Of a DNA stretch of 64,000 nt, positions 540-9,535 are shown one piece after another. Under the pieces are notes generated by a model. It ran no database searches and had not been told where the DNA came from. It worked only from the letters and a program-made list of their open reading frames with translations. Every line of letters starts with the position of its first letter. Positions within the stretch are counted from its first letter, which is position 1. This DNA is from Arenicellales bacterium (GTDB lineage: Bacteria > Pseudomonadota > Gammaproteobacteria > Arenicellales > JAJDZL01). The stretch lies in NCBI GenBank assembly GCA_951813075.1, contig OX638343.1, positions 1,048,149-1,112,148 of the forward strand. The letters run 5' to 3'. The position numbers were made by a program, and so were the translations under genes.

Positions 540-1175
540 ATGAGCATACCATCTTTTCACATTTCCGCACAACATATGAAAGGCGCGATCCAAATGCTCC
601 ATCACATTCGCGCGGTTTCGGTACCCATTCTGACCGATGACTTCCGACAGGAACTTCTGGAAGAAGCACAGAGCTACCCGCTGCGCTACATCAACAATTC
701 AATGGGAAGCGGCGAGAATGAAGTGAAACAAGAGATGTATCTACAAAATCAACTACATATGGGCGATGCTTTTGGCGAACTTTTGCGTGATTTTCAGACA
801 CTGTTCAACGATAGTATCTCAGGGTGTGGATTTTTTGATGCCGAAGTCGTATTCAATGACTGGATCATACAAAAATACGAGCCCGGATACATCGGGATCA
901 CACCGCATCGGGACCGAACAGATTATCGGCATATGATTTGTTTGTTCGTGCTCTCAGGGCACGGTCGATTCTATATCAGCAAAGACAGGGCAAAACGCGA
1001 TTCAATGGAGATTGCAAATTTACCTGGCGATGTCATTCTGATGCCAGGTCCTGGATTCAGAGGAATGCATCATAGACCTTTCCACTATCTTGAAGACATT
1101 ACGACGGGTCGTTGGATATTCGGTTTGCGTCATGACGAAACCAAACTGAATGGCGAACGTGACAATTCTGACTAG
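540..1175 (+). CDS. 2OG-Fe(II) dioxygenase-like protein
   Basis: A 211-residue protein. The second half carries PHRDRTD (an HxD pair), then a glycine-rich strand region and MHHRPFHYLED followed by GRWIFGLRHD. This resembles the HxD...H...R iron and 2-oxoglutarate ligands of the double-stranded beta-helix dioxygenases. The assignment rests on that pattern only; the substrate is unknown. The start is uncertain: ATG at 540, 576 or 594 are all possible and none has a clear ribosome binding site. Its stop overlaps the stop of the convergent metZ gene by 3 bases. Confidence 0.6.
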   Translation: MSIPSFHISAQHMKGAIQMLHHIRAVSVPILTDDFRQELLEEAQSYPLRYINNSMGSGENEVKQEMYLQNQLHMGDAFGELLRDFQTLFNDSISGCGFFDAEVVFNDWIIQKYEPGYIGITPHRDRTDYRHMICLFVLSGHGRFYISKDRAKRDSMEIANLPGDVILMPGPGFRGMHHRPFHYLEDITTGRWIFGLRHDETKLNGERDNSD

Positions 1176-2344
1176 CTGAGATTTGCTCGCAAGTCCGCGA
1201 TAAGATCATCTGTATCCTCGAGTCCAATTGACAATCGAATCAAGCCATCGGTAATACCAGCTCGTTCTCGGTCCTCAGGTTTGATGCGTGCATGCGTAGT
1301 TGATGCTGAGTGGCTCACCGTGCTTTTCGCATCACCTAGATTTGCCGTAATAGAGAAAACCTGCAAGGAATCAATGAGTTTCCACGCAGCATGTTGGCCA
1401 CCGGCAAGTTCAAACGAGAGGATCGCTCCAAAGTCATTTTGTTGCTTTTTGGCAAGTTCATGACCCGGATGATTGGCGAGACCAGGATAGTGCACCCGCG
1501 TTACTTTCGGCTGGTCATTCAGCCAGTGTGCAATTTTCGATGCATTGGTACAAGACTCGGACATTCTAATCGCAAGCGTTTCCAATCCCTTGAGGAAAAT
1601 CCACGCGTTGAACGGGCTCATACACGGTCCCGCGGTACGCAAAAAACCAACAATACTGTCTGCAATATCTGGATCGCTGGTTACTACTGCGCCTCCAACG
1701 CCCCTGCCCTGTCCATCGAGGAATTTGGTGGCGGAATGCACAACGACATCCGCACCCAGTTCCAGTGGTTGCTGCAGTGCCGGGGTGCATATGGCATTGT
1801 CGACTACCAGAATGCAATCGCCCTTTTCGTGTGCGACATTTGCTAATTCGGCTATATTAACTATCTCACAAAGTGGATTTGAAGGCGATTCGACGAATAT
1901 CAATTTGGTATTGCCACGCAATTTCCCTCGCCAATCATCGACGTCGGTCGGAGAGATGAATGTGGTTTCAATATCGAATCTGCTAAGAATATTGCAAAAT
2001 AGATTGGTTGTTGAACCAAACAAGCCACGACCCGCAAGAATGTGGTCGCCCGCTTTCAAAGTGGTCATGCACACAGCGAGAATAGCGGCCATCCCAGACG
2101 CGGTACCGCTGCAAAATTTGGCGTTTTCCAGAATCGATAATCGGTTCTCGAATGCTCGAGTAGTTGGATTGGTGAATCTGGAGTAGATGTTGCCTGATTC
2201 TGTTTCGGCGAAACGTCTGGCAGCTTCAGCCGAGTCACGGAATACGAAACTTGATGTCGCAAAAATTGGGTCGTTATGCTCGTTCTCTTCGGTTCTGCAC
2301 TGACCCGCCCTGACTGCTTTCGTTTTAAACCCTTTACCGTCCAT
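1172..2344 (-). CDS. metZ: O-succinylhomoserine sulfhydrylase
   Basis: A PLP enzyme of the Cys/Met metabolism family that makes homocysteine from O-succinylhomoserine and sulfide in the cytoplasm. Seen: YSRFTNPT near residues 54-61, the substrate and PLP-phosphate region GTASGMAA near 80-87, VVDNA, and SATKFLDGQGR with the Schiff-base lysine near residue 207. The frame is open back to 2509, but the start was placed at 2344. A good GAGGAA site precedes that ATG, the resulting 390 residues fit the family, and the upstream codons coincide with a SAM-II-like riboswitch. The neighbouring methionine genes are not in the window. Expression is probably repressed by S-adenosylmethionine. Confidence 0.9.
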   Translation of the reverse strand: MDGKGFKTKAVRAGQCRTEENEHNDPIFATSSFVFRDSAEAARRFAETESGNIYSRFTNPTTRAFENRLSILENAKFCSGTASGMAAILAVCMTTLKAGDHILAGRGLFGSTTNLFCNILSRFDIETTFISPTDVDDWRGKLRGNTKLIFVESPSNPLCEIVNIAELANVAHEKGDCILVVDNAICTPALQQPLELGADVVVHSATKFLDGQGRGVGGAVVTSDPDIADSIVGFLRTAGPCMSPFNAWIFLKGLETLAIRMSESCTNASKIAHWLNDQPKVTRVHYPGLANHPGHELAKKQQNDFGAILSFELAGGQHAAWKLIDSLQVFSITANLGDAKSTVSHSASTTHARIKPEDRERAGITDGLIRLSIGLEDTDDLIADLRANLS

Positions 2345-2396
2345 TACAAATTCCTCGTTTGGCGCTTGAAAGGGAATCGAAAGGTGAGCACGAAGT

Positions 2397-2453
2397 ACCG
2401 CTTTAGCCCTTAAATTATTCGCGCCGGCAAGCTGATCATCAAATCTACGCGAT
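2397..2453 (-). promoter_or_regulatory. SAM-II-like riboswitch in the metZ leader
   Basis: Read on the minus strand, the metZ leader has CGCG at 2451-2448, GATTTG at 2445-2440, GCTTGC at 2432-2427, a second CGCG at 2423-2420, AATAATTT, and GCTAAA at 2407-2402. The two CGCG blocks can form stem P1. The loop and tail words match, in order and spacing, the conserved words of the SAM-II (metA-type) riboswitch as I recall it. The element ends about 50 bases before the metZ ATG. SAM-II elements are known mainly upstream of methionine genes such as metA and metZ. No covariance model was run. Confidence 0.72.
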
Positions 2454-2509
2454 GAACTTTTTAGAATCCTGTAGATAGAACATGACTCTAATTCGGCGAT
2501 TCGGTGCAA

Positions 2510-5290: not shown

Positions 5291-6057
5291 ATTTTTTTCG
5301 ATAATTTTTCAACTATATTAAGACGGCTGCTACTAACCGAATGGAGTGGCTCAATTTTAATTTAATTTCCAAAATCTACAAGCATTTCGACCCGCGTCAC
5401 CTCTTGGATATAAACAAATCTTTTTGACGAATGCGGCATCGATGGCGTGACCGAATTTAGTCTAGCGTATCGTACCATGCTGCATAGTTCGATAGTTGAT
5501 AGTTGGTTTTCTACAAAAAAACCTATATTCATTTAGAGAATGTTGCCGACTAAGCAAGACGGTACAATAGTTAAAGTGGAATTCAGAATTTGAACCTACA
5601 CCAATATTTATTCCATTCAGACAAGATCGGTTTTATGTTGTATTTGTGAAATAAAGCGTCCATACACTTGAGCACTACCTCAAAACGTAATAATTTCCGA
5701 ATCTGAATTGATTTTACGAAATTTCGCCTTTTATTCTTAGATTATTGATTCCCAAATAAAACCGAATTCTAGTGAGGTATGTTAACATGGCGCCAATTGC
5801 GAAAATAGCAGGAATCTAACTAAGTTGGTTTGACAAATTTTGGTGTAATGCTGAATTTTGAACTTATTATTATGCCTATGAGGAATTTCCGAGTGGTAGT
5901 GTGAATCATACTAGACTATGCTCAATTCGCACATCGAGATCAAATGGAGTTTTAATTGTGGACGTTCCAGAAATATTTATTGTTGTTCATAGTTTCTTGC
6001 AGATTACAGTCCACCTTGATTAAATTGGGAAACTTGGACAAAACGAATAGCATCGTC
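5291..6057. other. AT-rich non-coding stretch before the kinase-like operon
   Basis: No gene seen. The promoter of the operon starting at 6058 presumably lies here, but no clear -35/-10 pair could be picked out. An in-frame TTG at 5956 extends the next gene by 34 codons; it was rejected as the start because those residues do not look like part of the fold. Confidence 0.5.
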
Positions 6058-8238
6058 ATGGAAATGGAACAGTCTGATAGAAAAAATATTGCTAAGAATA
6101 CGCCTCTAGATAGTGGAAATTCTCACCAAATTACTCAGCCGTTTCGACCGCGGGCAAGGCTACTACAACTACTTGGCGACGAATTGATTGGAAACCATCG
6201 GCTGGCTATTTTTGAGTTAGTCAAGAACGCATACGACGCTGATGCTACTAATGTATTCGTAAACATTCATATCAATTCTTATGATGAATCTACGATAACT
6301 ATCACTGACGACGGTGAAGGCATGACACTTGATGTTCTCGAATCAGTGTGGCTGGTGCCTGGAGACGACCATCGTAAGGCACAGCGAAATGAAGGTCGGA
6401 GGACAGCTAGATACGGTCGCCTTCCGCTAGGCGAAAAGGGATTAGGTAGATTTGCGGTCCATAAACTGGGCAACTGCATCGAACTAATAACTAGAGCACA
6501 AGGTTCTGATGAATGCGTCGTAGACATCGACTGGAGGGAATTAATTGCAGAATCCTATCTCGATCAAGCAAATGTTGTAATAAACGTCCGTAAACCAAAG
6601 CTATATTCCGAAGACAAAACAGGGACTCAAATCACAATTCGGAATTTACGCACTGGTTGGTCGCGAGGGGAAGTGCGGCGACTTTACAACCAGATGACTT
6701 CAATCTGTTCGCCGTTTGAAGAACCAAGTGACTTTCATACCAAGTTAATAGTACCTGGTTACGAAAGCTGGATTGAGGACTTACCAGATGTATCCGAAAT
6801 TCTCAATCGCGCAATGTGGAAATTTACATTTAACGCTGACAGCGATGGGTTCGATTGGAGTTACGAGTTCTGCAAGCAACCAGGACTCAACATCGAGGGT
6901 CGAAAATTGGAGAAATCAAACGATATTTTGAAAATTCCAGTTTTAATCGAGAAAACCAATAGAACTAAGACTGTCGCCGACCAATCCAATTTCGCAGAAA
7001 TTGGACCTGTTAGGGGAAAGTTCTATGTCTATGACCGAGATCGTGAAATTCGACAGTATGTGCCAAATATTTCAATTGTTGAAAGCTATCTGAATGAATC
7101 GGGAGGAATCCGGGTCTACAGGGATGGTATTCGAGTGTACAACTACGGCGAACGCGGTGACGACTGGTTGGGACTCGACCTCCGCCGAGTAAATCTACCA
7201 ACGCTTCGGATAAGCAACAATATCATCTTGGGTGAAATCCACCTCTCTTTGGATGAGTCGAAAGGGCTTAATGAAAAAACCAATCGAGAGGGCTTTGTTG
7301 AAAACGATGTGTACACGGAGTTCCGTCGAATTGTATTGGGAGTTCTCGCAACTCTAGAAACCGAACGCCAAATTGACAAAACCCGAATTCGAAAACTAAT
7401 GAAACCAGACGAATCTTCGGTGGGTATGGGAATCGCGAAACCAATTCAAGAATTACGGAAAGCACTTGATCAACAAGGAATTAGGGATAAATTTGAACAG
7501 TACATTGTCCGTATTGAAGAACACTACCGAGATAGGCAAGAAACTCTGCTTGCAGCTGGTATTTCGGGACTCAATCTTGCAATAATTTTCCATGAAGTTG
7601 AGCGCGGAGTTCGATCACTTCATCGTGCAATCATTCAAGGTGTAGATACCGAAACAGCCGTCATTCAAGCACGTGATCTGGTTCATCTTCTAGATGGATT
7701 CGCATCTCTACTCAGACGGAACAGTAGGCAGGGGAATAGCGGAAAAAAACTCATCCGCGCTGCACACCAAATGAATCTTCTGCGATTCCGACATCACTCT
7801 ATTAGATTTGTTTGTCCTCCGCTTGAACGAGACGACTTGGATTTCCAATCCAATTTTGCCTTCAATCTAGTTCTCGGCGCACTAAACAATTTAATTGATA
7901 ATTCCCTGTACTGGTTGAGCATTAGATGGCCAAATCAACACGATCAGAATGCTACGCCAGAAAAAAAATTGTACATTGATATATTGCCTGATTTTCATGG
8001 AGGACCGGCGATCATTGTTGCTGATAATGGAATCGGATATCGAGGAGATGATCCCGAAAATCTAATTCGACCATTTTTCACGCGTAAACCCGAAGGTATG
8101 GGATTAGGTTTGTTTTACACCAATATGGTAATGGAGTTAAACGAAGGAGATCTCGTGTTTCCACAACCAGTAGAGGTAGAAATTCCCGAAGAATTTGATG
8201 GAGCGGTATCGGTTCTTATCTTCACAGGAATGAATTGA
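6058..8238 (+). CDS. Double-GHKL histidine-kinase-like ATPase
   Basis: About 726 residues from the chosen ATG (start uncertain). It has two Bergerat ATP-binding folds. The first is MutL/Hsp90-like, with ELVKNAYDAD near 53-62, DDGEGM near 84-89 and GEKGLGRFA near 125-133. The second is kinase-like, with NNLIDNS at 610-616, DNGIGY at 656-661 and GMGLGL at 680-685. Between them, IIFHEVERG holds a histidine at about 512, placed like the phospho-acceptor of a dimerisation/H-box. No membrane segment or sensor domain is visible, so the protein should be cytosolic. The gene is followed after 1 base by the receiver-domain gene, so a phosphorelay is plausible. Two GHKL modules in one protein beside a DNA methyltransferase recall the MORC/MutL-type ATPases of some restriction systems. 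The biochemical role is inferred. Confidence 0.8.
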   Translation: MEMEQSDRKNIAKNTPLDSGNSHQITQPFRPRARLLQLLGDELIGNHRLAIFELVKNAYDADATNVFVNIHINSYDESTITITDDGEGMTLDVLESVWLVPGDDHRKAQRNEGRRTARYGRLPLGEKGLGRFAVHKLGNCIELITRAQGSDECVVDIDWRELIAESYLDQANVVINVRKPKLYSEDKTGTQITIRNLRTGWSRGEVRRLYNQMTSICSPFEEPSDFHTKLIVPGYESWIEDLPDVSEILNRAMWKFTFNADSDGFDWSYEFCKQPGLNIEGRKLEKSNDILKIPVLIEKTNRTKTVADQSNFAEIGPVRGKFYVYDRDREIRQYVPNISIVESYLNESGGIRVYRDGIRVYNYGERGDDWLGLDLRRVNLPTLRISNNIILGEIHLSLDESKGLNEKTNREGFVENDVYTEFRRIVLGVLATLETERQIDKTRIRKLMKPDESSVGMGIAKPIQELRKALDQQGIRDKFEQYIVRIEEHYRDRQETLLAAGISGLNLAIIFHEVERGVRSLHRAIIQGVDTETAVIQARDLVHLLDGFASLLRRNSRQGNSGKKLIRAAHQMNLLRFRHHSIRFVCPPLERDDLDFQSNFAFNLVLGALNNLIDNSLYWLSIRWPNQHDQNATPEKKLYIDILPDFHGGPAIIVADNGIGYRGDDPENLIRPFFTRKPEGMGLGLFYTNMVMELNEGDLVFPQPVEVEIPEEFDGAVSVLIFTGMN

Positions 8239-8239
8239 A

Positions 8240-9535
8240 GTGCTACCTACGCCGAGAATTGTTGTAATAGATGACGAGATTAAACATCTTGAAGGGCTCA
8301 CTCGAGGTCTCAACAAGTTCGGCTATGCCTGCCTACCGATCCTTTATCCCGGTCAATTGGTTACTGAATCAAATTGCCCATACGTAAGAATTATTTTTAC
8401 CGATTTACATATCGTAGGCGGACCTATAAGTAATTTTATTAGCGACTTTGCTGCAATTGGTGGACTTATTGAAAACCAAATTAAACCTTCGGGGCCTTAC
8501 CTTATTATTCTTTGGACGGAACATCCGGAGCAAGAGCAAGAATTTCAGAATTACTTAACGAGAAATTTAATGAATGTAGCAAAACCATTTGCTGTTATAG
8601 CTTTAAGTAAAGCGGAACATCTAGACTCTACCAACAGGAACATAAGTGATCCAAATTCACTGATTTTCGAGATTCGGAAAATTATAGAGGCACAACCCCA
8701 AGTTGCAGCACTTCTTGATTGGGAGCGCGCTGCGCAAAATTCTGTCGCGGAGACCGTGTCATCTTTGTCAGAATTGGCAAACTTTGAACCGAAAGAATTG
8801 AGCAAACTACTCAACAAATTAGCTGCCGCGGCTGTTGGGGCGAAAAATTTTCCCGATGATATCTTTGCTGCAGTGAACGAAGCACTTTTGCCTATTTTGG
8901 CTGATCGGGTGGCTTACATGGGGTCTCAAGACAGTAATGTTGGCCTATGGCAAAAAGCACTTTGTCAGCATAACATTACAGGAACGTTAGATTGCGACAT
9001 TGTTGCCAAACTCAATAGTTTGGTACATCTTGAAGTGCTCAAGTATGAAAAACCGACAAACTGGCAAAAACGCGGTGCTGTAGTTCCGTTGCCGAAGAGA
9101 TTTTCCGAAAGTAAATTCAAAAGCACATTTGGGCTTACTCAAAATGACATAGCGGAAAAATCGTTTTTCTGTAAAAATTTCGAAGAAAACAAAGATAAAA
9201 CCAGTTGGGTGTTGGTGCAAACTCAACCTGCATGTGACTATGCTCAGAATCGACCGGGGACCTTGCCATTCAATCTCGGTTTATATTTGCATTCCGAACT
9301 CGTACGGAGGAACGCTAAACCTCCTGAGTCTCTTTGGTGCAGTCCACCTTTCTGGGTAGAGAATGTAACATTCAAATTTCATATTAATGCAACCTATCAG
9401 GTTTCGTTACCACCACACGCTCGCAACATAGATTTCCCGAAATTCCGGTTACGTGAACAGATACTCAATGAATTGATATACCGGATACACAGCTACGGTG
9501 CACGTCCGGGCTCAATTTCGTTTCGTAATAATTGA
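8240..9535 (+). CDS. Receiver-domain protein with unknown C-terminal domain
   Basis: 431 residues starting at a GTG one base after the kinase-like gene. Residues 1-125 follow the receiver pattern: the acidic pair D11-D12 in VIDDE, D55 in IIFTDLH as likely phospho-acceptor, T93 in LIILWTEH, and a lysine near 124. The remaining 300 residues match no output domain that I recognise. There is no helix-turn-helix, and the part around WVLVQTQPACDYAQN and SPPFWVENVTFKFH looks like a folded globular domain. Context suggests it is the partner of the upstream ATPase. It could be an effector or a decoy rather than a transcription factor. Confidence 0.72.
   Translation: MLPTPRIVVIDDEIKHLEGLTRGLNKFGYACLPILYPGQLVTESNCPYVRIIFTDLHIVGGPISNFISDFAAIGGLIENQIKPSGPYLIILWTEHPEQEQEFQNYLTRNLMNVAKPFAVIALSKAEHLDSTNRNISDPNSLIFEIRKIIEAQPQVAALLDWERAAQNSVAETVSSLSELANFEPKELSKLLNKLAAAAVGAKNFPDDIFAAVNEALLPILADRVAYMGSQDSNVGLWQKALCQHNITGTLDCDIVAKLNSLVHLEVLKYEKPTNWQKRGAVVPLPKRFSESKFKSTFGLTQNDIAEKSFFCKNFEENKDKTSWVLVQTQPACDYAQNRPGTLPFNLGLYLHSELVRRNAKPPESLWCSPPFWVENVTFKFHINATYQVSLPPHARNIDFPKFRLREQILNELIYRIHSYGARPGSISFRNN

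Follow-up and report, generated by a model that had tools for sequence, protein, structure and literature searches.

The locus raises two questions: whether the leader of metZ in the stretch of DNA analysed here (64,000 nt, the window) encodes a SAM-II riboswitch, even though Rfam at gathering thresholds returned no match anywhere in the 64-kb window, and by what means such an RNA would act on the gene.

The aptamer and its gene

An earlier note on this DNA had read conserved SAM-II words in order, together with a pairable P1, upstream of metZ. Both are present on the minus strand, with the core words GAUUUGA, CUUGC and GCUAAA in the correct order at 2445-2402, inside an aptamer core at 2397-2451. 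The window's P1 comprises five pairs, four Watson-Crick and one U.G, between a 5´ strand CGCGU (2447..2451) and a 3´ strand GCGCG (2420..2424) that lies within the word GGCGCG (2425-2420); the assignment of both strands rests on the sequence and on covariation of the homologous P1 columns. The innermost P1 pair of the relatives is replaced by A.G in the window. Loop L1, GAUUUGA (2439..2445), whose role as third strand of a triplex is known from other SAM-II RNAs, contains AUUUG, which is invariant in 46/46 aligned sequences, as are GCUUGC and GCUAAA. In the pseudoknot, the P2a 5´ strand AUC (2434..2436) pairs with GGU (2397-2399), in columns that vary on both sides with pairing mostly kept, and the P2b 5´ strand UUGC (2427..2430, within the word CUUGC at 2431-2427) is invariant and complementary to its partner in all 46 sequences. 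The P2 3´ strand, GCUAAAGCGGU (2397..2407), reads as GCUAAAGC (2407-2400) followed by GGU (2399-2397). All of the P2b and GCUAAA positions are intact in the window.

The downstream gene (1172..2344, minus strand) encodes a 390-aa O-succinylhomoserine sulfhydrylase, MetZ, which scored 530 bits with TIGR01325 (cut-off 510) and 606 bits with NF006003 (cut-off 522). A 445-aa version beginning at an upstream start was rejected, because the added segment lacks an ATG and its frame is closed in the comparison genome G001. The metZ ATG at 2344 is 57 bases 3´ of GCUAAA and 43 bases beyond the end of the model match described below, such that the aptamer adjoins a methionine gene; in the window and its genus, the aptamer and the start codon are 45-57 bases apart. 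The earlier note's remark that the ATG, some 50 bases on, lies farther off than is usual for direct ribosome-site masking is fair. We also noted a 211-aa protein encoded at 540-1175 on the plus strand, where its gene converges on metZ and shares four bases with the metZ end; no match to this protein was detected in Pfam, NCBIfam or PADLOC.

The earlier note had named the Rfam SAM-II model as the check on its proposal. In a permissive scan of 601 bases (2150-2750), RF00521 (SAM_alpha) aligned over its full length at the site with 16.9 bits (E 0.27), which is below the gathering score of 36 bits and, by the criterion set in the earlier note, would nominally refute the proposal; no other family was listed there at E up to 10. 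The SAM-V riboswitch, which has the same SAM-binding core and controls translation (Huang and Lilley 2018, PMC6061858), gave no match at the site up to that E-value, and the Shine-Dalgarno sequence (2356-2353) is ~40 nt from P2a, not inside it as in SAM-V. When 60 genomes from around the window's genus were searched with RF00521, one genome rose above the cut-off and many matches fell at 25-39 bits; at the loose E-value used, 8 of 14 control genomes also gave matches, none of them above the cut-off. Similarly, three of the 14 loci from the class that were put through Rfam reached 36 bits. The matches fetched from the RF00521 scan share the arrangement GCGCC-GAUUUGA-n-CAGCUUGC-G-GGCGC ... GGCUAAAG. 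A pattern search caught 19 of the 20 fetched loci (L006 was missed), and in these the element precedes, as judged by eye from sequence and translations, metZ (14) or a metH-like start (five). As most plain relatives also fall under the RF00521 threshold, we read the failure of this model as the limit of an alpha-trained, too narrow model and not as a defining feature of the RNA.

A first alignment (A1) comprised 46 distinct aptamers that a pattern search had picked out of the fetched loci, and a second (A2) comprised 40 gammaproteobacterial sequences, leaving out the five rows from the window's genus as well as L063, which has an inserted hairpin. The covariance model built from A2, referred to as R2, thus excludes the window's genus. 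In the 64-kb window, R2 matched 2388..2454 on the minus strand over model positions 1-65 of 65 with 33.2 bits (E 9.5e-8), while the next match had 6.3 bits. In the 3.14-Mb genome from which the window comes, the site ranked first (E 4.6e-6; next match E 0.075), and the top match in six of six genomes of the genus, at 33-41 bits, was always directly before metZ.

Covariation in A1 is consistent with this assignment. With P1, P2a and P2b drawn as a pseudoknot, 93.0% of cells were paired across the 46 sequences, compared to 38-53% for control structures slid along the alignment, and the covariation score was 0.179 versus 0.081 for shuffled alignments (0 of 500 shuffles as high), a test that kinship among the sequences can inflate. 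With the genus excluded, 93.2% of cells were paired and covariation was 0.160 versus 0.060 shuffled. The P1 columns were 95.7% paired, and three of their six pairs change on both sides; the P2a columns were 77.9% paired, and all three of their pairs do so; P2b is paired in 46/46 but never varies and is neutral on pairing. Among five distinct leaders of the genus, from genomes of which the other four encode MetZ proteins 64-85% identical to that of the window, 68% of aptamer positions were invariant, in contrast to 2% in the upstream 100 nt, 15% in the spacer and 49% in the first 45 nt of the gene.

The aptamer is a real, selected and diverged member of the SAM-II class before metZ, as shown by its homology and conserved core, the covariation of P1 and P2a, the signs of selection and its fixed place before the gene. 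The identity proposed in the earlier note therefore stands, on the strength of the genus-free model, the covariation, the six genomes and the metZ family models, and the gammaproteobacterial setting was also borne out; what did not hold was the Rfam score. The points against are that score, the weakened P1 and the fold of the isolated aptamer (2394-2456), which did not improve on shuffled sequences (z +0.73) and had no P1 in its MFE structure, though P1 does appear when the entire 145-nt leader is folded. We put at roughly 0.88 the probability that 2454-2388 (minus) is the aptamer of a SAM-II riboswitch in the metZ leader that lowers metZ when SAM is abundant. The ligand and the OFF direction are inferred from the family: abundant S-adenosylmethionine would bind at the P2b/L1 triplex, binding would lock the H-type pseudoknot formed by P1 and P2, and the locked pseudoknot would cause metZ expression to fall, a feedback brake on methionine synthesis.

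SAM-II elements across the Gammaproteobacteria

The SAM-II class was defined by Corbino 2005, whose account of the element includes a few cases in other proteobacteria (PMC1273637). The window's RNA resembles the SAM_alpha/metA element of RF00521, as presented there, in its P1 hairpin, GAUUUGA L1, CUUGC/GCUAAA pseudoknot, P2a and position by a methionine gene. The gammaproteobacterial subtype differs from RF00521 in the GCGCC ... GGCGC arrangement given above, with scores mostly of 25-39 bits and mostly under threshold, and the window's genus differs in turn from its gammaproteobacterial relatives in having GCGUN...CCGGCGCG and a weaker P1. The earlier note had found a gammaproteobacterial copy notable. 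Matches to R2 at E <= 0.001 were however present in 179 of 369 genomes sampled from the class (131 of 272 genera) and in 79 of 109 genomes of the window's order, and Barrick and Breaker 2007 already list SAM-II for Bacteroidetes as well as for alpha- and gamma-Proteobacteria, sporadically in gamma (PMC2258182). The surprise of the host thus goes away when a suitable model is applied to the relatives. A literature search that covered few subscription journals returned no description of SAM-II as widespread in Gammaproteobacteria. Together, the counts indicate that regulation by SAM-II is common in this class and is largely missed at the current Rfam threshold, such that methionine regulation is under-annotated in many of these bacteria.

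The genomes with SAM-II directly before metZ include records of Solimonas marina, Sinimarinibacterium, Nevskia, Thiotrichaceae and Ectothiorhodospiraceae. In one fetched set, a strict pattern matched 23 of 80 loci. Other downstream genes, identified by eye, were metK (L150, L210), metF (L155), metN (L157) and a metH-like gene, as well as an aspartokinase-like start (L194-L196, L203). Leyn 2014 found SAM_alpha in Rhizobiales and Rhodobacterales only (PMC4239095). The same study describes a beta-proteobacterial metXZ element, with a pseudoknot and terminator before metX or metZ and six conserved blocks, and treats it as new with no ligand assigned; going by its description, the metXZ element is probably the same RNA as the gammaproteobacterial SAM-II subtype.

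Several arrangements were encountered among the loci fetched from the class. Tandem SAM-II elements, a configuration already known (PMC9481103), were present at L135, L159-L163 and L213, where the first copy is followed by a terminator-like hairpin and the second is not. The genes they precede do not resemble methionine genes and, as contexts for tandem SAM-II, were new to us; a P-loop ATPase, MoxR-like by eye, is downstream at L135 and L213, and an HD_4 protein is encoded one gene further on at L160. One genome, G305, had ten R2 matches, of which five were fetched. A variant, CCGCUGAUUUAA...CAACUUGC...GCUAAAGCGUU, was seen at L197, L199, L200 and L202, ~60 nt before a short gene whose product starts MQVST or MQIST, with no obvious terminator. 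In two class genomes, SAH riboswitches above threshold (L137:172-257 minus and L139:184-260 minus) were located within ~1.3 kb of a SAM-II element. Lastly, sub-cut-off matches to RF02424 (Bp2_287, 'Burkholderia sRNA') at L142:1467-1590 minus and G214:C56:69434-69573 minus fell on the opposite strand of a SAM-II leader and its terminator. In reverse complement, the RF02424 consensus GCAaGCugaaAUCAAAUCGA reads UCGAUUUGAUuucaGCuUGC, and what this family models is probably the antisense strand of a SAM-II leader from beta-proteobacteria; across 274 class genomes, RF02424 gave no match above cut-off and one sub-threshold match at E up to 1e-6.

Possible expression platforms

Terminators are common in alpha- and beta-proteobacterial SAM-II leaders, according to Barrick and Breaker 2007 (PMC2258182). 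We scored 72 distinct leaders with a crude rule requiring a hairpin and a T tract. A terminator-like site was found in 58 of 67 leaders outside the window's genus, including 19/19 from the same order, but before the start codon in 0/5 leaders of the genus, and none was detected at 2000-2900 of the window. In a second batch of 20 loci from the order, picked to include weak or odd matches, clear terminators were seen by eye in six (L203, L206, L207, L208, L211 and L213). The idea that the absence is peculiar to the window's genus was weakened by the four loci with the variant described above, which have short spacing, a different gene and, by eye, no obvious terminator. In terminator-type leaders, AAAGC of P2 is by eye complementary to the 5´ arm of the terminator, for example AAAGCGAGG with ACCCCGCU, as is standard for antiterminators.

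The window's leader has no intrinsic terminator, and the start codon lies 57 bases past the aptamer; by exclusion, the likeliest mode of action of this version is control of translation initiation (or an effect via Rho or RNA stability) in place of the terminator of its relatives. For S. meliloti, Scheuer 2022 describes SAM-II before metZ, with a terminator predicted, and before metA, where translation is controlled at a distance, the start codon being 74 nt off (PMC9373788). The window is like S. meliloti in having SAM-II before metZ but lacks the terminator predicted for the S. meliloti metZ copy. The genus of the window is a natural setting in which to ask how a riboswitch could keep working once its terminator is lost. 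The energy computed for opening the ribosome site in the window was 7.58 kcal/mol with the aptamer free and 7.58 kcal/mol with it sequestered, and no consistent change was seen across the genus; translational gating is therefore not predicted by these computations.

Three helices that might link the aptamer to expression of metZ were compared with shuffles. Pairing of a leader strand with metZ codons 4-10 as a toggle, an idea suggested by folds, was rejected, the duplex energies being no better than those of shuffles (fractions 0.41, 0.73, 0.44, 0.42, 0.29 and 0.036), as was a helix between the P2 3´ strand and the spacer in the genus (0.72, 0.94, 0.63, 0.57, 0.34 and 0.14). A third arrangement, which is possible although we consider it unlikely, is a switch through P1. 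With SAM, P1 and P2 would form, and the segment before the Shine-Dalgarno sequence, left free, could then block the ribosome site; in the absence of SAM, the P1 3´ strand would capture that segment and free the site. The Shine-Dalgarno sequence of metZ, GAGG (2353..2356, minus), which is kept as GAGG in G001 only, is closely preceded by GCGCC (2361..2365, minus), a candidate, suggestive only, for the segment that would pair with the P1 3´ strand in the SAM-free state. Compared with dinucleotide shuffles, the duplex between P1 3´ strand and spacer gave p 0.135 (window), 0.039, 0.041, 0.247 and 0.008 in the five distinct leaders, which combined beat shuffles (Fisher 0.0011, with the near-identical sixth leader, G005, p 0.46, left out), while 51 control leaders had a median p of 0.73 and 3.9% under 0.05. 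The hypothesis is however post hoc, having been formed from folds of those same leaders, which are related; the best duplex in the window uses another stretch (CUUCGUGCU), and the opening energies show no gating. A marginally more doubtful extension is that the genus rebuilt its metZ SAM-II, the terminator being lost and translational control arising via a new helix between the P1 3´ strand, not P2, and the segment before the Shine-Dalgarno sequence. If true, this would be a SAM-II expression platform switching through P1.

Somewhat less probable again is attenuation of transcription, either at a terminator overlooked in the scans or through Rho-dependent termination in early metZ. The prevalence of terminator-like hairpins with T tracts outside the genus would favor it, and the one match of the window to our rule, a weak hairpin followed by AUUUUUGC, lies within the metZ coding region. 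This intragenic hairpin is missing in G001, however, and the gap of just 45-57 bases between aptamer and ATG, like the clean scan of 2000-2900, argues against attenuation. It is very improbable that the RNA is a decaying, non-working relic of a SAM-II riboswitch: its 33.2 bits are near the bottom of the order's matches listed, and both the innermost P1 pair and a terminator are gone, but conservation of the aptamer far above its flanks across the five genomes, at the MetZ divergence given above, and the intact P2b and GCUAAA positions point to a maintained element. A chance run of words with no RNA element, for which the sub-threshold Rfam score might be cited, has next to no probability, being refuted by the genus-free model and the conservation, with covariation also against it.

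Elsewhere in the window, we noted at 5956-9535 on the plus strand a gene for a 760-aa ATPase with two HATPase domains, followed immediately by one for a 431-aa protein with no Pfam match. The ATPase part of the 760-aa protein matched PADLOC models of type II restriction enzymes weakly.
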